Assembly (NCBI GenBank): GCA_949152475.1
Contig: OX424568.1
Coordinates: 21,055,667 to 21,119,666 of the forward strand
DNA: 64,000 nt
Direction: 5' to 3'
Source of the DNA: Terebella lapidaria
Lineage: Eukaryota > Annelida > Polychaeta > Terebellida > Terebellidae
Shown here: piece by piece, positions 3,294 through 64,000 of the stretch
How positions within the stretch are numbered: position 1 is the stretch's first letter
Layout of the letters: each line of letters begins with the position of its first letter
The notes under the pieces: generated by a model
Database searches by the model: none
Seen by the model: the letters and a program-made list of their open reading frames with translations, nothing else
What the model was told of the DNA's origin: nothing
Program-made: the position numbers and the translations under genes

Positions 3294-3365
3294 GCAACCG
3301 TTAAAGTCTACGTGGAATATTTGATACAACAATTTGTTTCTTTGAATTCGGAGTAGCCTATCAAC

Positions 3366-4524
3366 ATGGCAGAATCACTGGAAGATTGGTTTAAAGAAGC
3401 AGAACTGTCGGCAGATACGGTTCACGCACTTGCAGAGCACGGCTTTGCTTCGAAGAAATCTTTGAAGAGACTCACACAGCCCGTGTTGCAGAAACACTTC
3501 GGGAAAATTCTCCCGCTCGGCCAACTCTTGCTGCTTGAAGGCGCCGTCGAGGGCTTACAGACGACGCAGCCGTCTACGACTCCGTCTACAACAGAAACGA
3601 CCAACGCGCCTTCGGGTTTTACCCCCGGAGACACTGGTGACCATGGCAACGCACCGCCCGAAAATCCGACATCAGCGCCTACCCCACCGGAGGACGGTAA
3701 TAACCTGGACTTTACCAAACTGTGTCAACTGCTCGGCGCGGGACACGTGGCGGGAGGCAACGCAGAGATCCAGGGCAACATCCAGACAGCAGGGGCGTTG
3801 TCGGCTGACGACGGTAAGCCGAGTGTCTTTGACCCATTCCAGTTCTATGCACGGCAGTCGCCTAATGACAAAAAGAAAGCTCGTGACGTGCGTGACTTTC
3901 GCAAATCAACACCGCAATCCAGACGACCAGACCTCGCACCCTGTTAAAATCGGCAACACCGTGATCGACATCACTCAGACTGATCATAAAGTGTCACTGG
4001 AGAGCATGACTCCGCTACAGTACGCAGAGGGAAGTCTTCGCATCCTGCGTGAAATGGTGCTGACTGACGGACTTACACTCCCGGGCGTGCTTGAGCACAT
4101 CGGTTACCTAACCAAAATCGTGTGCATGGCACAGGTATTTCCGTGGCACGGAGTACTCAGGTACGACACAGAATACCACAGACAACAGGCATGTATGGGC
4201 TTCCCCTGGGGCTCCGATAGTCCTTTCCTCATGCAGCTGCTGCTGGGTCAAGGCAAACAACCTAGCGGAGGGAGAGGACGGGACCCGGGGGCGTCGGCGC
4301 CACGTGGGAACACGCGGGAAAAGTATGACCCGACAACGGGGACGGCCATTTGTCAACGCTTCAATGGTCGTAACGGTTGTTCCCTCAGAAACTGTCGGTA
4401 TTCCCACGTCTGTGTTACCTGCTTCAGCAAAAGCCATGGCGATTTCAACCACATCCCGCGCATGCACAACCAGAACGCGGGGACCAGCAACGCCACACCA
4501 CCCACAAGTACCCCAAAAAACTGA
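3366..4524 (+). pseudogene. DIRS ORF1, gag-like protein with CCCH-type zinc motif (frameshifted)
   Basis: An ATG at 3366 opens a frame reading MAESLEDWFKEAEL, whose first 65 residues look like a SAM-type helical domain. The frame ends at 3947, but a plausible protein sequence (NQHRNPDDQTSHPVKIGN) continues in the next frame from about 3900 to 4524. One extra base near 3895-3905 explains this. The C-terminal part has a Cys/His cluster CQRFNGRNGCSLRNCRYSH (C-x8-C-x4-C-x3-H), followed by further Cys and His residues, the kind of nucleic-acid-binding finger found in ORF1 of tyrosine-recombinase retroelements. The frameshift could instead be programmed, but I see no slippery site. Confidence 0.75.
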
Positions 4525-4535
4525 GTGTGCCCACA

Positions 4536-6236
4536 ATGTCCCCGCTGACTGAGAAACTGGCATTGTGGGAACAGGAACTGCCCAGCGATGACCCTGATCG
4601 ATCATTTATATTGGACGGTATCAGGCACGGTTTTCTCATCACAGACAACATGTGCTCAGACAGTATTGCTGATGTCTACGTCAGAAACAGTACATCGGCC
4701 ACCGCAGCAGAGACACGTGACCTTGTCGAGGACCAGATCAAGGAGGAAGTGCTACTCGGACGCTATGTACCAGTGAACACCAAACCAGCCATCGTCAGCG
4801 CGATATCAGCAGTGCCCAAGAGCTCCGGTGGTATCCGGCTCATTCACGATATGAGCCGACCGGATGATGCCTGCCTCAACAACATGGCCACTAAAGAGCC
4901 TTTCCGAGCCGAGTCCGTGAACGACGCGATAGCCAAGATAGGCCCTGGATGGTTTATGGCCAAGGTAGACCTCCAGTCAGCCTACCGGATAGTGCCACTT
5001 CACCCCTCACAGTATCAGCTGACCGGACTTCAGTGGACATTTAAGACAGGCCGTTCCCAGTATATGTATGATGCCCGGCTGCCGTTTGGAGCACGCAAAA
5101 GCCCCCACTTATTCCACACACTAACGCAATCAGTGCGACGAATGATGGAAAGGAGAGGATTCAACGCCGTGACAGTGTTCCTTGACGACTTCCTGGTGGC
5201 CGGAGAAACTTTCACCCAGTGTCAGGCCGCTATGAACACTCTGATACACCTACTGAGAAGCCTGGGCTTCATGATAAACTGGAAAAAAGTGTGTGATCCA
5301 ACGCAGCGCATCGTGTTCCTCGGTGTGGTAATAGACTCCAAGGCAGGGACACTGTCACTGGAAGCCAGTAAAGTCCGTCAGCTACAGACTCTACTCGCAG
5401 ACCTACAGCTACGCAAGCGTATATCACGTCGACAGCTAGAGTCATTGGCGGGTAGACTCTCCTGGGCTGCCCACCTGATTCCGTGGGGCAGAACACACAT
5501 CAGGTCGATCTTCAACGTCATCCGATCTCTAAACCACCCCACCCACAAGGCCCCGCTGTCGACGCTCAGGGAGGACCTACAGTGGTGGCAGGTCTGGTTG
5601 GTTTACGGCAACAACACCAAGCGGATTTGGGATGACCGGGAGACGCGCCACGTATTCACCGACGCCAGTGTCCAAGCGGGCGGAGCATTCTGCCATGGGG
5701 ACTGGGTGTTTACGGCATGGCAGGCGGACTGGCCCGACATCGCTGGTGAACACATAAACGTTAAGGAACTCGCAGCTGTGTGTGTGTCTGCCCTCCGCTG
5801 GGGACCTGCGTGGGCGGGCCGCCGTGTCGTGGTCCACACAGACAGTCGTGTCGTCGAAGCTATGCTAAACAAGGGTTCATCAACAAACATAGTGTGTCTG
5901 ACAATTCTCAAGGCTTTTTCACTCATTGCATTGCATTATGACTTTAGCTTACATGCTGTCCATATTCCAGGATGTGACAATGTGATAGCGGACTCAGTAA
6001 GCAGACTGTATGCAAATGGCTATCTAAGCTTTCTGTTACATATATTGCATCCAATGTATGATAAAAGCAATGTACTGTTGTATGTAGCTCCACACATGAC
6101 ACCGATGTCCATGTTATCTGTTGACCCACAGATCTCGCAGCTCAGCAGCTCCGACAGGACCTGGACAGAGAGGCTGCGTACTGGCGGTCCAAGTGCCTGG
6201 CCGAGTCGACGAAGTCAGCCTACAGAGTCCATCTGA
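4536..6236 (+). CDS. DIRS ORF2, reverse transcriptase-RNase H
   Basis: The ORF is open from 4377, but the in-frame ATG at 4536, just after ORF1 ends, is the likelier start (MSPLTEKLALWEQ). RT blocks are in order: the IRLIHDMSRP finger block, the WFMAKVDLQSAYR block with a catalytic Asp, LPFGARKSPHLF, then the catalytic FLDDF box (about 5178-5192), a YxDD variant, and the thumb FLGVVID. RNase H follows with HVFTDASVQAGGAF, INVKELAAV, a DSRVVEAML block and a conserved C-terminal Asp in VIADSVSR. Its length of about 566 codons is normal for a DIRS RT-RH without methyltransferase. All catalytic carboxylates I can place are present. Confidence 0.9.
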   Translation: MSPLTEKLALWEQELPSDDPDRSFILDGIRHGFLITDNMCSDSIADVYVRNSTSATAAETRDLVEDQIKEEVLLGRYVPVNTKPAIVSAISAVPKSSGGIRLIHDMSRPDDACLNNMATKEPFRAESVNDAIAKIGPGWFMAKVDLQSAYRIVPLHPSQYQLTGLQWTFKTGRSQYMYDARLPFGARKSPHLFHTLTQSVRRMMERRGFNAVTVFLDDFLVAGETFTQCQAAMNTLIHLLRSLGFMINWKKVCDPTQRIVFLGVVIDSKAGTLSLEASKVRQLQTLLADLQLRKRISRRQLESLAGRLSWAAHLIPWGRTHIRSIFNVIRSLNHPTHKAPLSTLREDLQWWQVWLVYGNNTKRIWDDRETRHVFTDASVQAGGAFCHGDWVFTAWQADWPDIAGEHINVKELAAVCVSALRWGPAWAGRRVVVHTDSRVVEAMLNKGSSTNIVCLTILKAFSLIALHYDFSLHAVHIPGCDNVIADSVSRLYANGYLSFLLHILHPMYDKSNVLLYVAPHMTPMSMLSVDPQISQLSSSDRTWTERLRTGGPSAWPSRRSQPTESI

Positions 6237-7102
6237 AAACTTACCTGCAGTTCTGTGTCCAAACCAAGTGTCCGCCCTTACCAATCTCTACCGATAATGT
6301 ATGTAGATATGCTGCTTACTTGGCCCGTTCCAGGTCTCCTTCCACGGTTAGGCAGTACATTAATGTCCTTCGTCTTATCAGTCTTGAATTTGGTCTTCCC
6401 AATCCAGTAGAAACCTGGGAACTTGGATCACTAATCAAGGGTGTCCGTAGACAGAAAGGTAACAGTGCAAACCAAAAGGCCCCTATTTTGCCTGAACACC
6501 TCATCAGCTTTTCTCGTTGCCTCAACTTTTCAGATTTGTCAGACATGCAATTCTGGTCGGCCTGCCTGACAGGATTTTTTGGTTTGCTGAGAGTCAGTAA
6601 CTTCACGGTGTCATCGTCCACATCCAGTATGTCTGTCACTCGTCAGGATGTCTCGGTGAATAAACAGGGTGTTGTCCTTAAGGTTCGTGCCTCTAAAACA
6701 AACCAGTGTAAGTCTAGAGTCCACGAGGTAGTCCTCCCTTACACAAAACATCCCCTGTTGTGTCCCGCTACTCATGTTATCAGGTTCCTAGGTCTCACGC
6801 TCCAGGTTCCCCCCTCTGAACCATTGTTCACCATCCCCCGTAATGGCGTGTTCGTTCAGTTAACCCAGGCTCATTTCCGCCAGAGATTTTTGCAACTGTC
6901 ATCTGGGGTGGGTCTTTTGTCAGGAAAATACAACACACATAGTTTGCGGCGTGGCGGAGCCACTTGGTTGCTTTCTACAGGGACCCCCTTAGCTATGGTT
7001 AAGGCGATTGGAGATTGGTCGTCCGACGCTGTTTTCTCGTATCTAAAACCCACCACGGGCATGAAGTTTCATGCTCTACAAAATGCTTTCAAGGGTTTAT
7101 AA
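6125..7102 (+). CDS. DIRS ORF3, tyrosine recombinase
   Basis: The frame is open from 6125 to the stop at 7102. The first ATG is at 6320, yet residues before it (such as EAAYWRSKCLAESTKSAYRV) form the SAM-like N-terminal core-binding segment expected of phage-integrase-type recombinases. Without them the protein would lack part of that domain. Catalytic residues are visible: Arg in FGLLRVSNF, the box-II HSLRRGG (H-x-x-R), a Trp in IGDWSSD and the Tyr nucleophile in FSYLKP. It would join the circular cDNA to the genome. It overlaps ORF2 by 112 bases in the -1 frame, so read-through by frameshifting or a non-AUG start is likely. Confidence 0.87.
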   Translation, partial: PTDLAAQQLRQDLDREAAYWRSKCLAESTKSAYRVHLKTYLQFCVQTKCPPLPISTDNVCRYAAYLARSRSPSTVRQYINVLRLISLEFGLPNPVETWELGSLIKGVRRQKGNSANQKAPILPEHLISFSRCLNFSDLSDMQFWSACLTGFFGLLRVSNFTVSSSTSSMSVTRQDVSVNKQGVVLKVRASKTNQCKSRVHEVVLPYTKHPLLCPATHVIRFLGLTLQVPPSEPLFTIPRNGVFVQLTQAHFRQRFLQLSSGVGLLSGKYNTHSLRRGGATWLLSTGTPLAMVKAIGDWSSDAVFSYLKPTTGMKFHALQNAFKGL

Positions 7103-17832: not shown

Positions 17833-18645
17833 GCTCATATTCGCCACATAGAGGAGCACAAATTTTTTTTAGAGCGTTATAACGCTCTAATTACAGTGTA
17901 ATAACGCTGTAATACAGCGTTATAACGCTCTAATTTACAGCGTTATAACGCTCTAATTTAGAGCGTTATTACGCTCTAAATTAAACCGTTCACCTTCCTA
18001 GCATATTTCCATTATCGTGATTTGTAATAAACATATCTAGATCAGAATAATTTTGAGATTTCCCTACAAATGATTGAGCTGATGAACTAGCAGGTCCGAT
18101 GATGTCTCTGGCAGTGTAAATTAGAGCGTTATAACGCTGTAATTTACAGCGTAATTACGCTCTAATTACAGCGTTATTACGCTGTAATAGAGCGTTATAA
18201 CGCTGTAAATTACAGCGTTATAACGCTCTAATTTACAGCGTAATTACACTCTAATTAGAGCGTTATTACGCTGTATTAGAGCGTTATAACGCTGTAATTA
18301 GAGCGTAATTACGCTGTAAATTAGAGCGTTATAACGCTGTAATTTACAGCGTAATAACGCCTAAATTACAGCGTAATAACGCTGTAATTAGAGCGTAATT
18401 ACGCTGTAAATTAAAGCGTAATTACGCTATAAATTAGAGCGTTATAACGCTGTAATAGAGCGTTATAACGCTGTATTAGAGCGTAATTACGCTGTAAATT
18501 AGAGCGTTATTACGCTGTAAATTAGAGCGTTATTACGCTGTAAATTAGAGCGTTATTACGCTGTATTACAGCGTTATAACGCTGTATTACAGCGTTATAA
18601 TGCTGTAAAGAAAAAAGTGCATTCCTCCATCTGGCGAATATGAGC
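17833..18645. mobile_element. MITE-like element made of AGCGTTATAACGCT palindromes
   Basis: The ends are inverted: GCTCATATTCGCCA at 17833 and its complement TGGCGAATATGAGC ending at 18645, followed inward by related GGAG/CTCC and T-/A-tracts. The interior has two blocks (about 17868-17985 and 18118-18606) of 20-22-bp units of the form TTASAGCGTWAWWACGCTSTAA, each a near-perfect palindrome, about thirty in all, separated by 130 bp of ordinary sequence. No coding potential. Confidence 0.8.
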
Positions 18646-39900: not shown

Positions 39901-42608
39901 TGGGCAAAAAGGACTTGGTATGTAATAGTGATTCAATTTACCTGTACAATGGAAATTTTTCCAATAGTTTATATCCACATGCTTATAAAGATATTTTATA
40001 TATTTCTTTCAGACTTAGAAATGGCCGTAGCGTATTGGAAAATAGTTTTGCATGACAGATTCAAGTTCTTAGATCTTTGGTGTCAATTCCTTTTGGTGGG
40101 TACACATTAAAGTTTGTTATTTTCAAGACGTACGTGTCCTGTAGCTGCACAGTCAAAGCTTCATTAAATACTGCAATGAATTCTGATGAGAAATTCATGT
40201 CTTCAATACTAAGAATTGTGGTGTAAAATTTCATCTGGGATCATATTTGTGAACTCGTATCATGATTCCTGTCATTTCGATTGTAGAGCATAATGTTTTA
40301 TCAAAACAGGAGCACCACAAGCGGTCAATCCCGAAGGACACGTGGAATCTGCTTCTGGACTTCAGCAATATGATATCTGAAGATATGACCAACTATGACG
40401 AAGATGGTATGATATTTATGGCTGGAGATTTTGAAAGTTGTGTAGCTTGAATGCTATGCACATTTACATGAAAGAGAACCAAGTTATGTGAAGAAATATT
40501 CGAATAAATTAATTTCGTTGGAGTATACTGGGTTCATGATTGATTCGAGAGGTTGGCAATCATATCACCTCTTCACATGTTTCATCTCAATCTAAGATTA
40601 TATTCACTTGTGGCATCTCAAGTTTGCCAGTTTCCTAATTAGGGCGAAATGCCCTTATGGTTTTGTCTGGTTTTTTTTTTTTTTTTTTTTTTCTTCTTTT
40701 TTTTTACTTTCCGTCGTTTTGGTTTCCGATCAATAACTCGGGAACGCCTGAACGGATCTTGTCCAAATTTACACCACTGGTCAGAAATATTACATGGAAG
40801 ACCCCTATTGTTTTGGAGGCCGCTCCGGGGTCCGTGAGGTCCGTGAGGATGAAATCAAGGTTGATTTTGAGACTTGGTTTCCGATCGATAACTCAAAAAG
40901 TATTCATGCAATGGCAAGTATTCTCTGCATGGGAGTTCATATACCACCAAGGAAGAACCCTATTGATTTTGGGATCACTCCGTCGAACGACCTTTGACCT
41001 AGAGCTCGGAAGAATTTTTGCTGATTCATCCTTGAGGCTTTCTTGCATATCTCGGAAACGGTATGTCGTAGAGCGAAACGGAGCTCAATTTCGGCCTCCT
41101 GGCACTAGACAAACTAGTCTAGTGTGTATCTTGGGTCAAAACGACCCCTGGTGTCGATTTTTTTTTTCGCCGACTCGGCACTTCCTGTTTGGCCATATCT
41201 CGGAAACGGTATGTCGTAGAGCGAAACGGAGCTCAATTTCGGCCTCCTGGCACTAGACAAACTAGTCTAGGGGGTATCTTGGGTCGAAACGACCCCTGGT
41301 GTCGATTTTTTTTTTCGCCGACTCGGCACTTCCTGTTTGGCCGTATCTCGGAAACGGTGCGTCGTAGAGCGAAACGGAGCTCAATTTCGGCCTCCTGGAA
41401 CTAGACAAACTAGTCTAGTGTGTATCTTCGGTCGAGACAACCCCTGGTGTCGAATTTTTTTTTCGCCGACTCGGCACTTCCTGTTTGGCCGTATCTCGGA
41501 AACGGTGCGTCGTAGAGCGAAACGGAGCTCAATTTCGGCCTTTTGGCCCTAGACAAACTAGTCTGGTGTGTATCTGGGGTCGAGACGACCCCTGGTGTCG
41601 AATTTTTTTTTCGCCGACTCGGCACTTCCTGTTTGGCCGTATCTCGGAAACGGTGCGTCGTAGAGAGAAACGGAGCTCAATTTCGGCCTCCTGGCACTAG
41701 ACAAACTAGTCTAGGGGGTATCTTGGGTCGAAACGACCCCTGGTGTCGATTTTTTTTTTCGCCGACTCGGCACTTCCCGTTTGGCCGTATCTCGGAAACG
41801 GTGCGTCGTAGAGCGAAACGGAGCTCAATTTCGGCCTCCTGGCACTAGACAAACTAGTCTAGTGTGTATCTTCGGTCGAGACGACCCCTGGTGTCGAATT
41901 TTTTTTCGCCGACTCGGCACTTCCTGTTTGGCCGTATCTCGGAAACGGTGCGTCGTAGAGCGAAACGGAGCTCAATTTCGGCTTTTTGGCCCTAGACAAA
42001 CTAGTGTGGTGTGTATCTTGGGTCGAGACGACCCCTGGTGTCGAATTTTTGTTTCGCCGACTTGGCACTTCCTGTTTGGCCGTATCTCGGAAATGGTGCG
42101 TCGTAGAGCGAAACGGAGCTCAATTCCGGCCTCCTGGCACTAGACTAACTAGTCTAGAGGGTATCTTGCGTCGAGACGACTTCTGGTGTCGAATTTTTTT
42201 TTGCCGACTCAGCACTTCCTGTTTGCCATATCTCAGAAACGGTCCGTCGTAGAGCGAAACGCAAAAATGCGTAAGGACGGGGTATGTCACTTAAACTTTG
42301 ACCATGGACAGATTCAGAGTCATTATGGTTCTACGCGGTCTCTCAGGTAAATGTTAGGTAGGAATAGAACTCACAGGAAATGCCCCAAGGCATCTTCAGG
42401 CCTTGACGTCTAGTTTTAAATGAACATTTTCATGTACGCAAGTGTGACAAAATTGACCAAATTTTTTGCACCGTTTACAATATTCTTGTGACATTGGAAA
42501 CAAAAATAACAATTGTATAATGTTTTGACAGGTGCTTGGCCCGTGTTGTTGGACGATTTCGTGGAATTCGCTAGGCCAATGATACAAGCTCGGAGTACCG
42601 TTGTATAG
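36963..42608 (+). CDS. DCUN1D1: DCN1-like protein (DCUN1D1/2 type), 7 coding exons
   Basis: Cofactor that helps load NEDD8 onto cullins (with UBE2M and RBX1), mainly nuclear and cytosolic. Coding exons: 36963-36965 (ATG only), 39020-39233, 39415-39583, 39787-39917, 40013-40095, 40310-40406, 42532-42608, joining in phase to 257 aa (vertebrate DCUN1D1 about 259). The N-terminus [15 protein letters not shown] is exactly the family start, and a UBA-like domain covers residues 8-45. The PONY/DCUN1 domain follows with [55 protein letters not shown] and the C-terminal [15 protein letters not shown], whose acidic patch contacts the cullin. It lacks the long N-terminal extensions of DCUN1D3-5. The last intron (40407-42531) hosts a repeat-bearing element. 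Assignment to DCUN1D1 rather than 2 is not possible; it may be their single ancestor. Confidence 0.92.
37376..38211. mobile_element. TIR element (MITE) copy 1, in DCUN1D intron 1
   Basis: Starts ACTATACCCTGATTTTTC and ends GAAAAATCAGAGTATAGT. The inverted arms continue for about 200 bases with good similarity (for example AACGGCAATTTTCTACC and its complement). A second copy lies at 43888-44461 in the opposite orientation. This copy contains a further insertion at 37581-37836. Confidence 0.85.
37581..37836. mobile_element. Small MITE nested in copy 1
   Basis: Begins ACACAATGAAACGTT and ends AACGTTTCATTGTG, flanked by TAGA at 37577-37580 and 37837-37840. The sister copy at 43888-44461 (reverse-complemented) has one CGAGA-type site here and no insert. 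Confidence 0.82.
38638..38683. repeat. Short tandem repeat TAATGTCTGAACTAGG
   Basis: About three imperfect copies of a 16-17-bp unit within DCUN1D intron 1. Confidence 0.7.
40641..42413 (+). mobile_element. Tandem-core element, family 1, copy 1 (in DCUN1D intron 6)
   Basis: Head: AGGGCGAAATGCCCTTATGG (hairpin GGGC...GCCC), then TTTTGTC and a 30-base T-rich tract. A core of 148-bp repeats fills about 41040-42262. The tail AAGGCATCTTCAGGCCTTGA leads to GTCTAG at 42413. Head and tail match copies at 47635-48892 and 61322-61828, and the head also matches 58459. Tandem-repeat cores, a 3' hairpin and a CTAG end resemble Helentron-associated INE / DINE-1 / bivalve pearl elements. That link is inference. 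Confidence 0.8.
41040..42262. repeat. 148-bp tandem array, about 8 units
   Basis: The phrase TATCTCGGAAACGGTGCGTC recurs every 147-148 bases from about 41048 to 42232. Each unit has a small palindrome CTAGAC-AAACTA-GTCTAG and a T-tract followed by CGCCGACTCGGCACTTCC. Because 148 is not a multiple of three, overlapping frames of about 71 codons appear in every unit; they are not genes. Confidence 0.92.
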
Positions 42609-47634: not shown

Positions 47635-48892
47635 AGGCATTTCAGCAGAAATGCCTTTATGGTTTTGTCCCAAAAAAATTTTTATTTATTTTTTTTATTT
47701 TTTTTTTCACTTTTTGGTTTCCGCACAATAACTTCAGTTTGCTTCGATGTATCTTCGCCAAATTTTCGGCATTTTTCGTTTTCGTCCATATCTCGGAAAC
47801 GGTGCGTCGTAGAGCGAAACGGACGTAATTTTCGGACTCGTGGCCCTAGACAAACATGTCTTATGGGTATTAGGGATGACCTTCGACCTTGACCTTAATT
47901 TTTTTTCGCTGAGTCGGCATTTTTCGCTTTCGTCAATATCTCGGAAACGGTGCATCATAGAGCGAAGCGGACATTATTTTAGAACTCGTGGCCCTAGACA
48001 AACATGTCTTATGGGTATTAGGGATGACCTTTGACCTTGACCTGAAATTTCTTCGCCAAGTCGGCATTTTTCGTTTTCGTCCATATCTCGGAAACGGTGC
48101 GTCGTAGAGCGAAACGGACGATATTTTTGGACTTGTCACTCTAGACAAACATGTCTAGGGGGTATTATGGATGACCTTTGACCTCGACCTTAAATTTCTT
48201 TGCTGAGTCGGCATTTTTCGTTTTCGTCGATATCTCGGAAGCGGTACATCGTAGAGCGAAAAGAACATTATTTTCTAACTCGTGGCCCTAGACAAACATG
48301 TCTTATGGGTATTAGGGATGACCTTTGACCTGGCCCTGAAATTTCTTCGCTGAGTCGACATTTTTCGTTTTCGGTGATATCTCTGAAATGGTGAGTCGTA
48401 GAGCGAAACGGACGTTTTTTTCGGACTCGTCATCCTAGACAAACATGTCTAAGGGGTATTGTGGATGATCTTTGACCTTAACCTTAAATTTTTTCGCTGA
48501 GTCAGCATTTTTCGTTTTCATCCATACCTCGGAAACGGTGCGTCGTAGAGCGAAACGGACGTTATTTTCGGACTTGTGGTCCTAGACAAACATGTCTTAA
48601 GGGTATTAGGGATGACCTTTGACCTTGACTTTAATTTTTTTCCCTGAGTCGGCATTTTTCGCTTTCATCAATATCTTGGAAACGGTGTATTATAGAGCGA
48701 AACGAACATTATTTTCGAACTCGTGGCCCTAGACAAACATGTCTTAGGGGTATTATGGATGACCTTTGACCTTGACCTGGAATTTCTTCGCTGAGTCTGC
48801 ATTTTTCGTTTTCGTCGATGTCTTTTTGCTGAGTCAGCATTTTTGTTTTTTTCATGCTTCACCCTGGAATGCCTTCAGGCCTTGACGTCTAG
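47635..48892 (+). mobile_element. Tandem-core element, family 1, copy 2
   Basis: Head hairpin GGCATTTC-AGCA-GAAATGCC, then TTTATGGTTTTGTC and a T-rich tract. The core of about 148-bp units runs from about 47770 to 48830. The tail GGAATGCCTTCAGGCCTTGA leads to GTCTAG at 48892. The units share ATATCTCGGAAACGGTGCGT with copy 1 but differ elsewhere, and also contain TGACCTTTGACCTTGACC. Confidence 0.82.
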
Positions 48893-53827: not shown

Positions 53828-56800
53828 AGGTTACCGGACCTATGGTCCGATAACCTATTGGCATGGCGTTGCGTCCGTCGTCCGTCGTCCGTCGTCGTCC
53901 GTCGTCGTCGTCCACATTTTTATCTTTTTTGTTTCCGGGCGAATTTTTCTGAAATTTTGCAGAAAAATACTTAAAAGTAATTCAAGAAGGAGGTATTTTT
54001 TAGTTTTTTGATTTTCGCTTTTTCTTCAAAATGGCGGCCGTTTTCGACGAAAAAGGCCTGATTTTGGACTTTGGCGGCCATTTTCTCAAAATCTGTTCAG
54101 TAACTTTTTTTCTCTTTGATACATAAGACTCCTCATATGTACTTCTATGATGTCTATAAATTTCGTTGCGCTTGAATCGCTCGAAGTGGGCCATTTTGGC
54201 CCAAACTCGGCCCAAATGGGACTTTCCCATGTTAAATTCTCCTATGCTTTATAATGGGACACATTAAAGCCTGATATCTCACTTAATATTGAGATTAGAG
54301 ACTAGGAATCAATTGTGGACATATAGGAAATGATATATGCTGAATATTGTCGTGACCTTGAATTTGACCTCTGACCTTGGTTTCAAGGTCAGAGCGGCCG
54401 TTTTCGTCGAAAAATGGCCAATTTTGGACTTCGACGGTCGTTTTCTCAAAATCTGTTCAGTAACTTTTTTTCTTATTAATGCATGACACTCCTCCTATGT
54501 ACCCCTGTGACACGTATAAATTTCGTTGCCCTTGAATCGCTCGAAGTGGGCCATTTTGGGCCCTAACTCAGCCCAAATGGGACTTTCCCATGTTAAATTC
54601 TCCTATGCTTTATAATGGGACAAATTAAGCCTAATATCTCACTTAATATTGAAATTAGAGACTAGGAATGAATTGTGGACATATAGGAAATGATATATGC
54701 TGAATATTCTCGTGACCTTGAATTTGACTTTTGACCTCATTTTCAAGGTCACAGGACAAAATGGCTAATATCTCGCTTATTATCGACTTTACAGCTTAGG
54801 AATCAGTTGTGAACATATAGGAAATGATATATGCTGAATATTCTTGTGACCTTGAATTTGACCTTTGACCTCATTTTCAAGGTCACATGACAAAATGGCT
54901 AATATCTCGCTTATTATCGACTTTACAGTTTAGGAATCAATTGTGAACATATAGGAAATGATATATGCTGAATATTTTCGTGACCTTGAATTTGACCTTT
55001 GACCTCATTTCCAAGGTCGCAGGACAAAATTGCTAATATCTCGCTTATTATCGACTTTACAGCTTAGGAATCAATTGTGAACATATAGGAAATGATATAT
55101 GCTGAATATTCTTGTGGCCTTGAATTTGAGCTTTGAAATCATTTTCAAGGTCACAGGACAAAATGGCCAATATCTTGCTTATTAGCGACTTTACAGCTTA
55201 GGAATCGATTGTGAACATATAGGAAATGATATATGCTGAAAATTCTCGTGACCTTGAATTTGACCTCTGACCTCATTTCCAAGGTCACAGGACAAAATGG
55301 CTAATATCTCGCTTATTATCGACTTTACAGCTTAGGAATCAATTGTGAACATATAGGAAATGATATATGCTGAATATTCTCGTGACCTTGAATTTGACCT
55401 TTGACCTCATTTTCAAGGTCACATGACAAAATGACTAATATCTCGCTTATTATCGACTTTACAGTTTAGGAATCAATTGTGAACATATAGGAAATGATAT
55501 ATGCTGAATATTTTCATGACCTTGAATTTGACCCTGACCTCATTTCCAAGGTCACAGGACAAAATTGCTAATATCTCGCTTATTATCGACTTTACAGCTT
55601 AGGAATCAATTGTGAACATATAGGAAATGATATATGCTGAATATTCTCATGACCTTGAATTTGACCTTTGACCTCATTTTCAAGGTCACAGGACAAATTG
55701 GCCAATATCTTGCTTATTAGCGACTTTACAGCTTAGGAATCAATTGTGAACATATAGGAAATGATATATGCTGAAAATTCTCGTGACCTTGAATTTGACC
55801 TTTGACCTCATTTTCAAGGTCACAGGACAAAATGGCCAATATCTTGCTTATCAGCGACTTAACAGCTTAGAAATCAATTGTGAACATATAGGAAATGATA
55901 TATGCTGAAAATTCTCATGACCTTGAATTTGACCTTTGACCTCATTTTGAAGGTCACATGACAAAATGGCTAAGATCTCGCTTATTATCGACTTTACAGC
56001 TTAGGAATCACCTGTGAACATATAGGAAATGATATAAGCACAATATTCTCATGACCTTGAATTTGACCTTTGACCTCATTTCCAAGGTCACAGGACAAAA
56101 TTGCTGATATCTCGCTTATTATCGACTTTACAGCTTAGGAATCAATTGTGAACATATGGGAAATGATATATGCTGAATATTCTCGTGACCTTGAATTTGA
56201 CCTTTGACCTCATTTTCAAGGTCACAGGACAAAATGGCAAATATCTTGCTTATTAGCGACTTTACAGCTTAGGAATCAATTGTGAACATATAGGAAATGA
56301 TATATGCTGAAAATGCTCGTGACCTTGAATTTGACCTTTGACCTATTTTCAAGGTCACAGGACAAAATGGCCAATATCTTGCTTATTAGCGACTTTACAG
56401 CTTAGGAATCAATTGTGAACATATAGGAAATGATATATGCTGAAAATGCTCGTGACCTTGAATTTGACCTTTGACCTATTTTCAAGGTCACAGGACAAAA
56501 TGGCCAATATCTTGCTTATTAGCGACTTTACAGCTTAGGATTTAATTGTGAACATATAGGAAATGATATATGCTGAAAATTCTCATGACCTTGAATTTGA
56601 CCTTTGACCTCATTTTCAAGGTCAACAGGACAAAATGGCTAATATCTTGCTTATTATCGACTTTACAGCTTAGGAATCAATTGTGAACATATAGGAAATG
56701 ATATATTCTGAATATTTTAATGATATTGAATTTGACCTTTGACCTAAATTTCAAGGTCAGTCATTTTATTTTCAAAGTCAGATTACAAAATGGCTTATAT

Positions 56801-56995
56801 CTCGCTTATCATCAAATTTACAGCTTAGGGGTCCATAGTGAACATATAGGAAATGATGTATGTTGAATAGTTTGGTGATCTAGAATTTAACCTTTGATCC
56901 CATTTTCATGGTTAGAGATATGGCGATTTCAGTGGTCACCTTGAATTTGACTTTCAACTTTCTCGGCTTAACTCTGTATATTTCTCCGGTAACCT
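53828..56995 (+). mobile_element. Tandem-core element, family 2, copy A
   Basis: The head is a hairpin AGGTTACCGGACC-TAT-GGTCCGATAACCT (53828-53856), followed by GTCCGTCGTC repeats. The far end TCCGGTAACCT (56985-56995) is the inverse of the first 11 bases and is followed by a tail hairpin TAGCCCATTGGGCTA (56999-57013). Between are a GGCGGCCATTTT-containing lead (to about 54720) and a long array of 134-bp units. No protein-coding capacity. Confidence 0.83.
54728..56900. repeat. 134-bp tandem array with nuclear-receptor-type sites, about 16 units
   Basis: GAACATATAGGAAATGATAT recurs at 54811, 54945, 55079 and 55213 and onward, a period of 134. Each unit contains GTGACCTTGAA, then TTTGACCTTTGACCT, then TTCAAGGTCAC. 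The middle is a perfect DR1 (AGGTCA-A-AGGTCA on the other strand) and the flanks are inverted TCAAGGTCA half-sites. Units differ by few substitutions, most outside these motifs. Confidence 0.92.
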
Positions 56996-57013
56996 TACTA
57001 GCCCATTGGGCTA

Positions 57014-58102
57014 ATTTTTTTACCGAAATATTGAGAATGAATTTTCAGGGGCGGCGATTCCATCGACCAACTCTATATATTGGTGTGGCCTTACTGTCCA
57101 TTTTGGGCCATTTCTAGGCTCTTTCATCCTTCGAAAAAAAATTTAGACTTAGGATTTTTTTGGGTCCTTTTTTCTTTCATAATGGGAGTTGCCACCACTG
57201 TACTCATAGAACGCCTTAAGATAGAGATATATTTCCTTAAGATATATTGGCACTTTCAAATAAGAAGTCATATATGGCGATTTGTGTTGTGACCTTGAAT
57301 TTGACCTTCGATGACTTGAAAGGTCAAACGGCCATTTTTTGGTCGAATAATGCCCATATTTGACTCTACATATGGAAATACTATGGAATACTTTGTTGTA
57401 CTGTCGATCTTGTCGATTGCACTACCAAAATACTGAGATGATAGCACAGGTTGATTATGATATAGCATCGGGATTTTTTCACATACCTTGTTGAAAAAAT
57501 TCTTACCGTCTGCTGATAATTAAAAACAGCAACATATTTTTTCATATCAAAAACATGCACACCAGTCCGTTGATGAATAAACTAAATTTCAGAAAAAAAT
57601 CTGTTTCGTGCCAGTTCAACCGCGAAACTCAACTTGCCTTCACACTTCTATTCCGAAGCAAAAAAAGATATGGAGAGTTGGAGACCCAAAACGGGAACCT
57701 CAAGGACAACCATCATTATGACATTATGCATCCGAGAACAGAAAATTTTGATGAAATATCTCCCACAATGAATCTTCCCACTTCAATTTCGTGAACCAAA
57801 ATGACAGTCGGTGTGGCCTAATTGGCTCTTTGAAAGTTCGGGAGTTTTGATATCGAGCATGATAAAAAGATGCAATGTTGTCGCCGATAGCAACAGAACG
57901 TCTGGTTATCATAACGCGGCCAACATTATTTTGTATGTCGCTTTTGCTTGCCCCTCAGGCGTTCCATGCAAACAAACGATCGATATCGCGAGCGCACGTG
58001 ACTGTGATGCACTTCTTCAGACTTGGTCACATGACTTGACGCGACCGCGATATAAAAACAGAGGCAGACGCGAAAACTTGTTTACAAACTAACAACACAA
58101 GC
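57014..58102. other. Upstream region of the scramblase gene
   Basis: To about 57420 there is sequence related to family 2 repeats. The remainder is unique-looking and should include the scramblase promoter. No separate gene recognised. Confidence 0.45.
58051..58058 (+). promoter_or_regulatory. TATA box of the scramblase gene
   Basis: TATAAAAA lies 45-52 bases before the start codon in GC-richer context. A start of transcription near 58081 would give a very short 5' UTR. Confidence 0.65.
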
Positions 58103-61100
58103 ATGGAGGACAAGAGACAAGTTGCACCCGGTGGACAGACACAGGAATTGCCTGCAAAAGGCGGTTATTCAAACCCACCGGCGTATTCTGATGGAACTGG
58201 GGGTTCAGCATTTCCAGCGGGGGGTGCAGTTGTCACCCAGCCTGTAGCTATGGCGCCCCTCGGGACTCATCCCAATGCGCCACCCGGGTTGGAATATTTG
58301 GCGCAAATGGACCGCGTGCAAATTCACCAAGTTCTACACATTGAAGAAGGTCTGAATAATGGACACCGTAGTCATACAATCTGCACTGCAATTTTAATAA
58401 ATATAGAGATGTTTATGTTAGATCTAATTATGTTAATAATGGAGGGTTATCAGAATTAAGGCATTTCGGCAGAAACATAGACATAGAAGAGAGATGGACC
58501 GCCAACTCGACCTCAGTGACCTTGAGCTTGTGACCAGAGGAACATGGGTACTTTATTTCCGGTTTGAAGTTTCATGGGAAAATTGAATTGTCAAAATACA
58601 TCGAATACCGTACGTGACGTCAACACGCTGGGGATCGTCAGGAATGAACAATGACAATAGGACGTTTTACGTTGACAACAGAAGTGTAACTACCATCTTC
58701 CTCTGACCTTTTGTGACCTCGAGCTCATGCAATGACTAGAAACAGAGAGATTGATATCGGAGTTGGCAGTCCATCTCTCTTCTATGTCTATGGGCAGAAA
58801 TGCCTTTATGGTTTTATCAGAATTCTTTTTTAGCTTACCGGCCCTTTGGGCCGATAAGCTATTGTCCGTCGTCCGTCCGGGTCTGTAACTTTTTTTTGAC
58901 ACGATGAATTTCCCCATAAATTTGTCAGAACATACCTTGGGCCAGTATCTAAAGACGTTTTTAGGTTACCGGACCTTTGGTCCGATAACCTATTGCCATG
59001 GCGTTGCGTCCGTCGTCGTTGTCGTCCATCGTCATCCGTCTACATTTTTATCATTAAAGTTTACAATCGTTCGAATCTTTCTGAAATTTTGAACAAAAAT
59101 GCCCAAAAATATTTCGAGAGGGAGATATTTTTTATTTTTTTATTTTCGCAATTTTTTTTCAAAATGGCGGCCTTTTTTGACGAAAAATGACCAATTTTGG
59201 ACTTTGACGGTGGTTTTCTCAAAATCTGTTCAGTAACTTTTTTTCTTATTGATGCATAACACTCCTCATACACACGTGCTCTCGTTAATCCTCACTAGTT
59301 TTGCGAGCGTCAGCTGGCTAAAACTGGCTGAAGCTAGTTGACTGGAGCCGGCCACAATAAACCCGCCTCCAAATTTTACCTAACTCGTTTTATAAATGCT
59401 CGCGTAAACCCGTTTGCAATTATGTCCGCGCGTTTTTGCTAGCCAACATTTTCAAAGCTCGTTTTCGCTAGCATGAAATCTGTCGGCGAGCGTAAGTGCG
59501 CCGAAGCCAGTTTGCAAAACCACGTCTTCATGATTCAGTCTTTTGACCATCGATAAATAGGATTCTTCATTCTGTTTTAGTCATATTAGTTTCAACTGTT
59601 TTTATTGAGAAAACTTCTTGTGACCAGTCAGTCCATGACATCAAGCAAACTCGAAACCGGAAGTGACGTATTTCACAGCCTAATTGAAGGTCAAGGCCAT
59701 TTATATGCGCATAAAACAGACTGGTGTCTTGCGGGAAATTCAGAGCCCAAATGCTTTTCTTCGAGTCAAACGCGCTTACAAATGTGTCACTTTATAAAAA
59801 CGGGCCGAAGAGAGTTTTGAAATCACTGGCGAGTTTAAGCTCGCTGGCCTGTGAGTCCGCGGGTTTGTGCGCGTTATGACTTCACCAAGAAATATCTAGC
59901 GAGCGGGAGCGCGCCGACTCCATTGTCAGCCAGCTTTTGCTAGCCGACGAAAAAACGCAAAATTGATTAGCGAGCCGGCTGGTGAGGATTAACGAGAGCA
60001 CGTGTGTATGTATCCCTGTGACGCGTATAAGTTCCGTTGCCCTTGAATCGCTCGAAGCCGGCCATTTTGGGCCCAACTCAGCCCAAATGGGACTTTCCCA
60101 TGTTAAATTCTCCTATGCTTTATAATGGGACGCATTTTGCCTAATATCTCAATTAATATTGAGATTAGAGATTAGGAATCAATTGTGGACATATAGGAAA
60201 TGATATATGTTGAAAATTCTCGTGAGCTTGAATTTGACCTCTGACCTCAGTTTCAAGGTCACAGGACAAAATGGCTAACATCTCGCTTGTTATCGACTTT
60301 ACAGCTTAGGAATTAATTGTGGACATATAGGAAATGATGTAGTCTGATGACCTTGAATTTGATCTTTGACCTAATTTTCAAGGTCATAGCACAAAATGGC
60401 TAATATCTCGCTTATTATCGACTTTACAGCTTAGGAATCAATGGTGAACATATAGAAAATGTTATATGCTGAATATTGCCATGACCTTGAATTCGACCTT
60501 TGACCTAATTTTCAAGGTCAAAGGACAAAATGGCTATTATCTTGCTTCTCTATTGAATTTATAGCTTGGGAACCAATTGTGCTTATTGTCGACTTTACAG
60601 CTTAGGAATCAATTGTAAACATATAGCAAATGATATATATATACTGAATATATTCATAACGTTGAATTTGACCTATGACCTCATTTTCAAGGTCACAGGA
60701 CAAAATGGCTATTATCTTGCTTTTCTATTGAATTTATAGCTTGGGAACCGATTGTGGACATATGGAAAATGATATACACTGAATATTTTGAGGACCTTGA
60801 ATTTGACCTTGACCATATTCTCAAGGTCAGAGCACAAAATAGCTTATATCTCGCTTATAATTGACTTTACAGCTTAGGAATCATAATGAACATATAAAAA
60901 AATAATATATACTGAATATTTTGGTGACCTTGAATTTGACCTTTTACCTCATTTTCAGGGCCAGAGAACAAAATGGCTAATATCTCGCTTATTATCGACT
61001 TTACAGCATAGGAATCAATTGCGAACATAGAGGAAATGAGATATGCTGAATAATCTCATGACCTTGAAGTTGACCTTTGACCTCATTTTCAAGGTCACAT

Positions 61101-64000
61101 CCAGTGTTCAAAACTAACAAAAAATTCAACCAGACCACAGGGCTGGTAAGTCTTAAAAGTTACCAGCCCTGCCCAAAAGTTACCAGCCTGATTTTGAAAG
61201 TTAAGTTAGGCCTATATATAGTGACCTTTTACAATTACAGAGCATCAGCAATTAATGTCATCTTATCTATTTGCGTCCTGGAAGGCACGCCTTTTCTAGC
61301 TGTCAATGATTGACCATTATTAGGCATCCCGATTGAAAATCGGGAGGCCTTATGTTTTTGTCTGTTTTTTTTTTTTTTTTTTTTCTTGGTTATATAATGA
61401 TGACCCAAACTGAAGATAACAGCTTTGAAGGTCTGCCTGGGCCTTGCTTGCCGGTCAATTGTTCATTGTATTCAGTTAAAACAGCACTGTGTTTATCTGG
61501 ATGAAACTACATGCATTGTTTTGTTTTCTAGCTGTATTTCACATGCAGTGACCAAATTATCATTGTTTTACTTAGTCAGAACCCAGAATAATTTCCTTTT
61601 TGCTTGTATTATGAATGTCTGTCATGTCTGTACATTTAATACCTATTGAGATTAAAACAAATATCTGATGGACATTTGTCTAGTGAGCAACTGCTATAAT
61701 TTGAACTCTCACTCCCACCTGTGTTCAATAATCCTGGTATATGTATTATAATAACAGTCAAGTTTCACCATTAGAAAAGAAAAGAAAAATTGGGGGATGC
61801 CACAAAGCCTATAGGCTTTTATGTCTAGTTAGTCCTATTTTAGAGTACCCTAGATCTGGTAACTTCTGCACATTTTACATCGACGATCATTTCTGTTTTC
61901 ATTAATGACGAGCCAAGTTTCACATTCATACTTTCATAAAGTGCTAGATCTATATTACGCTTTTTTGTAGTATCATACACTTCGTTGGCGGCTTTGCTGT
62001 CAACTTTTTCTCTTTTTTTCGAGGCCAAGAAATTTCCGCATTCGCGTTTTGCTATTGCTATAGAGAATCGTTTTTGCCTGCTATCTAGTCTGTGATTGGC
62101 TGATGAAATGACGTTGCTCCACATTTGAACCAATGAGATAGCACGATGTGTTTTAGCATTGGAATGATGGCGTGGTTTTACCAACAACGGGATTTTTTCG
62201 GTTTTGCTGTTTTCGGACAGAAACTAGACGTACATTTTTTATGTTTATAGCTCTACTTCTGAATTAAACAAAAAGAATCATAGTGCAGGCTTAATTACTA
62301 CGAGACGACAAGTCTATCTAAGAAAAAACCCCACTATTTACAAGCATTTCGTAAATATCACTGGAAAATTCAACCGGACCATCGGGCAGGAAAGTCGGCA
62401 AAGTTACCCGCCCGTCAAAATAGTTACCCGTCTCGGGCGTGCGGGCGGGTGGTATTTCGAACACTGGTCACATCACAAAATAGCTAATATCTGACTTATT
62501 ATCGACTTTACAGCTTTGGAATCATTTGAGGACATACTAGAAATGATATACTAGTATGCTGAATATTCTCATGACCTTGAATTGACCAATGACCTTATTT
62601 CCGAGGTCATGAGACAAAAGGATAATATCTAAAATGTATATTGTCCGGTAACCTTTCTTAACCCTTGGGCTAATTTTTTTTAACTTTTTTGATTGAATCG
62701 TTTTTGCCGATTTGGCGGCCATTTTTGACGAAAAATTGCCAATTTTGGACTTTGGTGGCCATTTTCTCAAAAACTGTCTGATCAGTTTCGAGATTTTTGT
62801 TTCAAAACATTCCTTTCATGTACCTCTACGACGTGTATAAGTTTCATTGCCCTTGAATCGCCGGTTTCGCGTGTGGCGACCATTTGGATTTTTTGACGGG
62901 TCGGAGGAAAAATTTTTTTTTGTCCCAGATCGAGTCACTATTCGTTTTGAGCCATTTCCAGCAAAAAAAAAAGTCCAAAAAAAACATGTGCGTGCGTGCA
63001 CATGTGCTAACCGAAAGATATATTTAGTGCGACACGCCGACACTCATATTTATAAGTAATATATATAGCCTGGAATCTGGATTGAATTCATAGTTATGTC
63101 AAATTGTAGGCCTACTGTATGAATGAATGAACGTGCTCAAGTGATGTACAGTCACGATATATCCCATTCCATGATTTCACAGCTATGATAATTCTATTAA
63201 AACCATTAAGTTGATTAAGTTGAATTGTTTTAACATGCAATTCACTTCTTTTCACATAGGCCGAGGCCTACAGGTATTTAAAAATAGCAAGAAAAATCTG
63301 TAATGCTCACAAAAAACCTATAAATCACATTCTATGTGTCATAACTGCATTTGATTTACGAAGGTATCATTCCGATAGTTTAAAATACCAGATATTGTAA
63401 ATATTTCAGAGTGTCATTTCATTGGAGTTGTAGCCTTAGCCTAATTTGGCACATAGGCACACAAAACTTGAGAGTTCCCATTCGATATCGGAAGTGAACC
63501 AGCAGTTGCAGACAATTTTGCCATGTTTTATTTATTGCAAGAAGCCTACACTAGGTGATAACATTAGGCCTGAACATACAGAGCATTGACTATATACATG
63601 TCTGCTATTATTATAATGACAATTCTCGAGTGTAGTGTCAGGTTCTATTGCTATTTTCCTTGATATTCGCCTGATCGTGAAACCGACAAAGCACAGATAG
63701 TCCTGGCACGCCACATTTACCTGTAGAAACATCCCCTCCGGCGAATAAAATAGTTCAGATGCTCATACGCACACCTATTGTCGGATAATGAGATATCAAT
63801 TTAGATTCCATTCAGTGTCCGTTACAGAGACCCCGCTAGATGGCGTTTACGTCATTATGTCGCAATACGTTATAATGTGAGTTGGCTATCTTGGTATGGA
63901 AAATCTTTGGTATAATGTCAACAACAACATACAGTCATAACTATATATATAATATAATTGACTTAACTTTTTTTTCCAGTGCTCATTGGATTTGAGCGGA
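58103..64000 (+). CDS. PLSCR: Phospholipid scramblase, first coding exon and start of the second (partial)
   Basis: Exon 1 is 58103-58349 (82 codons plus one base). Exon 2 starts at 63980 after TTTTTTTTTCCAG and leaves the window 21 bases later. Joining them in phase gives HQVLHIEE-VLIGFER, matching the scramblase signature around HQxxELLEVLxGFE. The N-terminal half of exon 1 is Pro/Gly-rich with a PPAY motif (residues 25-28), as in other family members. PGLEYLAQMDRVQIHQ (residues 61-76) is the start of the conserved domain. The family are palmitoylated, Ca2+-responsive plasma-membrane proteins with additional nuclear roles; which paralogue this is cannot be told. The 5.6-kb intron (58350-63979) is largely transposon sequence. 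Confidence 0.87.
58459..58831 (+). mobile_element. Family 1 head fragment, split by a MITE
   Basis: AAGGCATTTCGGCAGAA (58459-58474) and TGCCTTTATGGTTTTATC (58801-58818) together form the family 1 head hairpin. They are separated by the insertion at 58475-58793 and its duplicated target. No core or tail follows; a family 2 head starts at 58832. Confidence 0.8.
58475..58793. mobile_element. MITE with ~7-bp target duplication
   Basis: CATAGACATAGAAGAGAG at the left is exactly inverted at the right end (CTCTCTTCTATGTCTATG). GGCAGAA flanks it at 58468-58474 and 58794-58800. The intact target can be seen at 47635-47660. Possibly hAT-related (7-8 bp duplication). Confidence 0.87.
58832..58962 (+). 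repeat. Family 2 head fragment with variant hairpin
   Basis: AGCTTACCGGCCC-TTT-GGGCCGATAAGCT (58832-58860), followed by GTCCGTCGTCCGTCC. It is truncated where copy B begins. Confidence 0.78.
59271..60006. mobile_element. TA-target MITE with long perfect TIRs
   Basis: The first 25 bases, starting CACACGTGCTCTCGTTAATC, are exactly inverted at the right end. TA is duplicated at 59269-59270 and 60007-60008. Removing it restores CTCATATGTATCCC, as in sister units. TA duplication suggests a Tc1/mariner-type transposase. The interior has repeated GCTAGC/GAGCGNGC-type motifs and no ORF. Confidence 0.87.
61102..62466. mobile_element. hAT-like element inserted in the 134-bp array
   Basis: Begins CAGTGTTC and ends GAACACTG, flanked by GTCACATC at 61094-61101 and 62467-62474 (8-bp duplication). 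Subterminal regions carry AAATTCAACCRGACCA and GTTACCAGCC / GTTACCCGCC motifs. A family 1-type insert occupies 61322-61828. The 115-codon minus-strand ORF at 61840-62187 has no recognisable transposase motif. Confidence 0.85.
61322..61828 (+). mobile_element. Family 1-type element, copy 4 (no tandem core)
   Basis: Head AGGCATCCCGATT-GAA-AATCGGGAGGCC, then TTATGTTTTTGTCTG and a T-tract. The tail AAAGCCTATAGGCTTTTATG leads to GTCTAG at 61828. Same ends as the array-bearing copies but with about 400 bp of unrelated interior. Confidence 0.72.
62655..63979. other. Rest of scramblase intron 1
   Basis: 62670-62950 repeats the GGCGGCCATTTTTGACG / TGACGGGTCGG segment seen at 52290-52560. The remainder to the exon 2 acceptor shows nothing recognisable. 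Confidence 0.5.

Follow-up and report, generated by a model that had tools for sequence, protein, structure and literature searches.

A non-autonomous Helentron with a satellite-like core of nuclear-receptor-like half-sites in Terebella lapidaria

Two kinds of mobile repeat bear on the locus described here, the non-autonomous Helentrons (HINEs) and Alu, the latter being an RNA-copied SINE. In the sections of the source drawn on here, the parts of a DINE-1/HINE are subterminal repeats, a 5′ inverted repeat, a microsatellite and a 3′ palindrome (PMC4067079). Units of Cg_HINE from the Pacific oyster are, in the main-text parts of its description, mostly of 140-180 bp, in arrays that mostly have up to 5 of them and at the longest ~29 (PMC7492417). 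The human DR2 motifs reported number 108,582, with 90% of them in Alu (PMC1785376), and HNF4 sequences in Alu have been described as well (PMC3252374). For a complex receptor element of birds, an origin from transposable elements was excluded in a 2024 study (PMC10995137); for these three papers also, it is the portions cited that are meant.

The 64,000-nucleotide stretch of Terebella lapidaria DNA analysed (the window) contains a HINE, element 1, with a central array of 134-bp units. It is highly probable that this array is the central satellite-like block of the HINE, and that the half-sites in it have spread as passengers with at most their core being kept by the element lineage.

Architecture of the element and its neighbors

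53828-57014, + strand: element 1, non-autonomous Helentron (HINE) between T-runs, its ends set by copies elsewhere
53828-53838, + strand: 5′ subterminal inverted repeat AGGTTACCGGA, 11 bp, whose reverse complement is the 3′ subterminal repeat
53829-53855, + strand: 5′ inverted repeat GGTTACCGGACC-TAT-GGTCCGATAACC, its 5′ side nested in the subterminal repeat
53872-53909, + strand: CGTC-type microsatellite
54034-54751, + strand: two copies of a 360-bp segment, each consisting of left arm and one unit
54271-54398 (also given as 54271-54394), + strand: diverged first unit
54631-56759, + strand: central array of 134-bp units (Tandem Repeats Finder: period 134, 15.9 copies, 93% matches), each unit with TGACCTTGAA-TT-TGACCT-T-TGACCT-CATT-TTCAAGGTCA or a variant
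54859-54871, + strand: first exact DR1 of the array
56794-56919 (also given as 56794-56912), + strand: diverged last unit
56985-56995, + strand: 3′ subterminal inverted repeat TCCGGTAACCT, complement of the 5′ one
57000-57014, + strand: 3′ palindrome AGCCCATTGGGCT plus AA, then the T-run (AATTTT)

The structural features by which a HINE is recognized are present. Subterminal inverted repeats of at least 11 bp are common to both ends, as they are in element 2 (below), the 5′ inverted repeat is nested in the subterminal one, and the short palindrome near the 3′ end is followed by AATTTT. Insertion is T-rich and without target duplication, with T on both sides in 13 of 13 elements and TT as the minimum. 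The microsatellite and the central repeats make up a non-coding interior, with no stop-to-stop frame of at least 150 codons in 53828-57014. That the array lies inside a mobile element, as the original prediction had it, is borne out by these ends and by copies elsewhere; the arms of 13 copies of the family are 97.9-99.2% identical.

The units match an AGGTCA direct repeat with a one-base spacer, and TCAAGGTCA; these are matches of sequence, to what are known as DR1 and ERR/SF-1/FTZ-F1 sites. About 16 units of 134 bp had been predicted and are there, in an array slightly wider than first placed once the diverged outer units are added. A perfect DR1 with both flanking sites had been ascribed to every unit, which proved too generous: an exact DR1 is present in 12 of the 16 core units, TGACCTTGA in 14, TCAAGGTCA in 11, and all three together in 8. 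The four half-sites foreseen per unit are true of the consensus, whose four exact TGACCT/AGGTCA half-sites were matched by none of 20,000 dinucleotide-shuffled versions (largest 2, mean 0.06), and the 'some sixty' anticipated for the array come to 57 exact ones in the 16 core units. This high number reflects a single unit multiplied, and the 45 occurrences of TCAAGGTCA in the window (shuffle mean 0.83) are mostly a single motif copied in tandem, not independent events. In the 56,654 bases outside masked tandem arrays there is no clear enrichment of TGACCT, with 38 occurrences against 28.8 from a dinucleotide and 36.9 from a pentamer model. On average the most similar units in the array are those at lag 4 (difference 0.057 as against 0.066 for neighbors), and so the array has also grown by blocks of about four units. 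GACCTTTGACCT was not found in the main texts of the papers searched, which were ranked by other terms; of four longer unit strings one is listed for a single paper, on a synthetic decoy, and a scan of viral contigs for three patterns found none.

Further downstream is a second, more diverged element of the same kind.

58963-62673, + strand: element 2, interrupted copy of the element 1 kind, its units more diverged and its 3′ end a different variant
60141-61101, + strand: element 2 array, part 1, diverged 134-bp units
62475-62630, + strand: element 2 array, part 2, separated from part 1 by a hAT-like insert

Mean pairwise unit difference is 18% in element 2 versus 7% in element 1, and only one of its eight units, both array parts taken together, has an exact DR1. 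Two inserts interrupt it. The hAT-like one (61094-62474) has ends CAGTGTTC and GAACACTG and is flanked by an 8-bp target duplication, GTCACATC; the other, in the left arm (59271-60006), has long inverted ends, ACACACGTGCTCTCGTTAATCCTCAC and its complement. Between the two elements, 1.1 kb downstream of element 1, ~58103-58350 resembles the start of a phospholipid scramblase, though its 83 residues have no Pfam match. A fragment at 58480-58800 with inverted ends CATAGACATAGAAG seemingly interrupts a 5′ inverted repeat of AGGCATTTC..GAAATGCCT type, and there are TGACC sites within the fragment. Elsewhere in the window are a Gag-like frame with one zinc knuckle (504-1919, − strand), a DIRS-like element with a reverse transcriptase frame and a tyrosine-recombinase-like frame (3357-7102), and arrays whose 22-23-bp units, AATTAGAGCGTTATAACGCTGT for example, are palindromic (17868-18608).

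The family and its receptor-like sites across the genome

The genome searched, in which the window lies, comprises 761.6 Mb in 438 contigs; pattern counts are for all of it and the DNA and family searches give lower bounds. Scanning it for the family, as had been proposed, reveals great abundance: the 5′ inverted repeat, one base being left free, occurs 11,274 times and the 3′ end pattern 10,499 times, with zero for the reversed control of the former and for the control of the latter. The best 40 of 175 first-look candidates were scored, and all of them, on 14 contigs with the window's own included, match the 134-bp unit at 98-100%. Twenty array loci were fetched from these 40 best matches to one unit, and so favor young copies; all 20 have a recognizable end (5′ in 19, 3′ in 20). 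Flanks vary between loci and meet the element at T-runs, several elements are head to tail or nested in each other, and no target duplication was seen at the element ends compared between fetched loci. Among the sequences compared, uninterrupted relatives of the target are present for three of 13 insertions: for the one at L019 in the 147-bp arrays of L021, L023, L025 and others (77-85%), for that at L017 in L019 (82%), and for element 2 in L023 (96% over 158 bp). For a fourth, at L025, the target matches the window at 70% only.

Eleven copies of the array were compared unit by unit with element 1 as the reference. The unit-spacing series is identical in three (L009, L016 and L017), a few bases off in three more (L011, L013 and L014) and one unit shorter in four (L019, L021, L025 and L026), while that of L010, with 20 units, is unlike it. 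From 16 to 18 of 18 units were matched per copy, with a mean difference of 0.6-1.0% over the units that pass a 4% filter. The array travels as a block whose unit order is largely intact elsewhere, and this multi-unit block has been copied to other chromosomes.

The perfect DR1 TGACCTTTGACCT occurs 59,461 times in the genome and its reversed pattern 49 times. In the context of the 134-bp unit, GAATTTGACCTTTGACCT, there are 37,125 (62%), and in 4,580 cases the next bases are TGACC, the continuation found in the 147-bp unit considered below; the control for each is 0. Context places ~70% of perfect DR1s in two repeat units and leaves ~17,800 unassigned. ATCAAGGTCA, which is absent from the 134-bp consensus, occurs 14,498 times against 1,170 for its reversed control, a 12-fold excess. 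On one contig (C1) the first 30 5′ ends listed were taken, all with the exact 5′ repeat, some overlapping and none dropped. In 29 of these 30 the next 1.5 kb has four or more half-sites and one or more of the extended kind, in 15 it has an exact DR1, and the mean is 15.8 half-sites per 1.5 kb against 0.73 expected in random sequence. The suggestion that the family scatters clusters of receptor-like sites is upheld by these counts: the HINE family has spread tens of thousands of putative nuclear-receptor docking sequences through the genome and accounts for most of its perfect DR1s. With such numbers the receptors of the organism would face many potential sites or decoys. Any mapping of HNF4, COUP-TF, RXR or ERR binding here would meet the repeats first, whether as targets, decoys or mapping artefacts, and the family offers a clear case for asking, more generally, whether such sites in mobile repeats are of use to the host, are of use to the element or are simply carried along.

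In the favored explanation the HINE would be moved by a rolling-circle process, with an autonomous Helentron as the source of the replication enzymes. The units multiplied within the element, some segments by about four units at a time, and then travelled in one piece. The half-sites would have been part of the ancestral unit and spread as passengers. Inserted copies would not be kept by the host for their half-sites, which would drift like the rest, and at most the element lineage itself would keep the extended half-site core. Helitron Rep-domain genes are present: of 234 candidate matches 150 were scored, and many have open frames of ~2,000-2,600 codons. Counting against the explanation, no autonomous partner with the same ends was found, the one 5′ stretch read (L059, 2.8 kb, which may stop short of the true end) being without the repeat.

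Constraint on the half-sites and rival readings

The most durable alternative agrees that the element is a HINE and differs from the favored explanation only on the half-site core. In the germ line the core would recruit a host nuclear receptor that binds as a monomer (ERR or FTZ-F1/NR5A type), which would open or transcribe the element and aid its movement, and selection would be on mobile lineages, not resident copies. We think this unlikely.

The original prediction proposed comparing the rate of change in the receptor motifs with that in the rest of the unit, and in inserted copies the motifs change as fast: private changes are found in 19 of 4,907 half-site cells and 57 of 20,743 other non-CpG cells (Fisher P 0.19; 10 of 1,236 at CpG), in matched units from 12 young copies, where power for weak selection is low. 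Because such changes are as frequent in half-sites as elsewhere, the inserted copies are without visible constraint, and purifying selection at resident sites is not detected by this comparison. A comparison by whole-element alignment (half-sites 0.0099 against 0.0266) was set aside, as the alignment slips between units and the half-sites were defined by one copy.

Within the 134-bp unit the deficit in half-site variation is mild. Over 319 distinct units it is 0.041 in half-sites against 0.059 at other non-CpG sites, a value equally low in 11% of random site sets and 3% of circular shifts, and in the 52 of these units with identity below 88% variation in the DR1 is on a par with that elsewhere (ratio 1.03). 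Loci L029-L058, which partly overlap, yielded 125 distinct units, identical unit strings being counted once; in these the four half-site windows are at the 6th to 29th percentile of variation and the 19-mer GTGACCTTGAATTTGACCT at the 3rd. That the half-sites are no outliers in these units, the 13-mer varying least in element 1 being ACATATAGGAAAT and not a receptor motif, counts against recruitment. Between the consensus sequences of 16 loci with 134-bp units, six overlapping loci having been dropped, none of 384 half-site cells differs versus 25 of 1,646 others (P 0.008); by column the figures are 0 of 24 and 5 of 104 (P 0.58). Since half-sites vary less between lineages, a pure passenger status is not fully satisfying, and selection acting on the element is weakly suggested.

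HINEs at L033, L050 and L055, a related subfamily, have the same 5′ end and another central unit, of ~455 bp (449-455), which is similar to the 134-bp unit in the part around GTGACCTTGAATTTGACC. A motif-free probe collected 28 modules of this unit from 15 loci, and these were counted over columns 10-317, CpG and homopolymers excluded, after a wider stretch showed a badly aligned far end; an earlier probe, with 32 modules, gave the same outcome. GTGACCTTGAATTTGACCT is here the joint least variable of 221 windows of 19 columns. Recruitment would fit the minor bases, which are in 9 of 663 half-site cells versus 273 of 5,674 others, the cells not being independent, and the private changes, 7 of 663 versus 89 of 5,674 (P 0.40). 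Against it, the signal by column is weak, with 1 of 24 half-site columns versus 33 of 215 (P 0.22), 0 of 19 in the 19-bp core (P 0.08), and P 0.04 when the 134-bp and 455-bp families are pooled. Across four diverged module types TGACCTTGAA is invariant and TTGACCT nearly so, other columns being ~53% alike, a pattern that favors recruitment but comes from a biased comparison, the motif itself having served to find the modules; neither the second DR1 half-site (50%) nor the right arm (36%) is retained. The extended half-sites of the C1 elements and the excess of ATCAAGGTCA also speak for recruitment. An independent recurrence of TCAAGGTCA was considered and rejected: a first count placed it second of 4,057 words, and in a stricter one it has 8 distinct contexts, near the 7 for ordinary words of the 134-bp unit, so that convergence is not claimed and recruitment loses a further argument.

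The DR1 as such fares no better in a second HINE-like family.

47635-48892, + strand: HINE-like element with an array of 147-bp units (47766-48823), its 3′ end seen in a single copy only

The 147-bp and 134-bp units have only the DR1 13-mer in common (score 26, which none of 300 shuffles reached); once the motif is left out, the score is equalled in 21% of 500 shuffles. An exact DR1 is present in 10 of 33 distinct 147-bp units, where the 13-mer is more variable than the remaining positions (0.079 vs 0.053, with 98 of 135 windows varying no more), which again is at odds with recruitment. The common DR1 looks like an independent gain or an exchange. A 148-bp array at 41048-42261 has part of its unit in common with the 147-bp array (the TATCTCGGAAACGG stretch) and other sequence in place of the DR1 stretch. 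Overall, the variation data hint that the element keeps the extended half-site, and show no constraint on the host side and none on the DR1 as such. A broader conjecture, and an improbable one, is that a Helentron superfamily kept the extended core (TGACCTTGAA and the second TGACCT) in otherwise rewritten central repeats because its propagation is aided by a host orphan receptor of the germ line, and that the second HINE-like family, with unrelated units, gained its own DR1. On that view selection would show between mobile lineages and not in resident copies.

That the host has co-opted the clusters as regulatory modules is very improbable. The number and perfection of the sites might suggest it, as might the Alu precedents of DR2 and HNF4 sites, as far as the portions cited go (PMC1785376, PMC3252374), but the inserted copies change in their half-sites as elsewhere, and several are inside other repeats or inside each other.

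Even less credence can be given to conservation of the inverted arms GTGACCTTGAA...TTCAAGGTCAC as a hairpin with a role in, for example, rolling-circle replication or array growth, which was the structural option in the original prediction. A single unit does fold somewhat better than its shuffles (z −2.3 as DNA, −1.8 as RNA), but both 11-bp arms are perfect in just 7 of 16 core units of element 1 and in none of the eight of element 2, and paired cells and double changes in 26 units are within the range of shuffles of whole arms (0.29 and 0.24 of shuffles reach them). With the loss of the right arm in related modules as well, the hairpin was rejected as a conserved feature. An ordinary satellite that grew in place, unconnected with the element around it, could draw on the tandem structure with higher-order blocks; it has a negligible probability and is refuted by the 11-copy comparison, in which a near-identical block lies between the same ends at other places.

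Comparison with known systems

As a HINE, element 1 is like Cg_HINE of the Pacific oyster and pearl-type elements in being a non-autonomous Helentron with subterminal repeats, a 5′ inverted repeat, a microsatellite, a satellite-like array, a 3′ palindrome and T-run insertion (PMC7492417, main-text parts). It differs from Cg_HINE in its unit of 134 bp in ~16 copies, and the main-text parts of that description, the unit sequences being in figures and supplements, mention no receptor motif. With the DINE-1/HINEs of Drosophila and mites it has in common the end architecture and the T-rich insertion without target-site change; for these, autonomous partners are known and receptor-site arrays go unmentioned in the sections drawn on (PMC4067079).

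The likeness to the Alu DR2 case is that most sites of one nuclear-receptor class in the genome come from a mobile family (PMC1785376, in the portion cited). For some Alu copies receptor binding has been measured, according to the same portions (PMC1785376, PMC3252374), whereas here the sites are putative, in tandem clusters and in an element of Helentron type. ISX of Drosophila miranda, of Helitron type, is another element that scattered binding sites, there for a host complex; in the cited part of its description binding and selection on resident copies are reported, in contrast to the resident copies here, which look unconstrained (PMC4384637). The Terebella case joins two known kinds, the HINE with a satellite-like core and the mobile family that dominates one class of receptor site.
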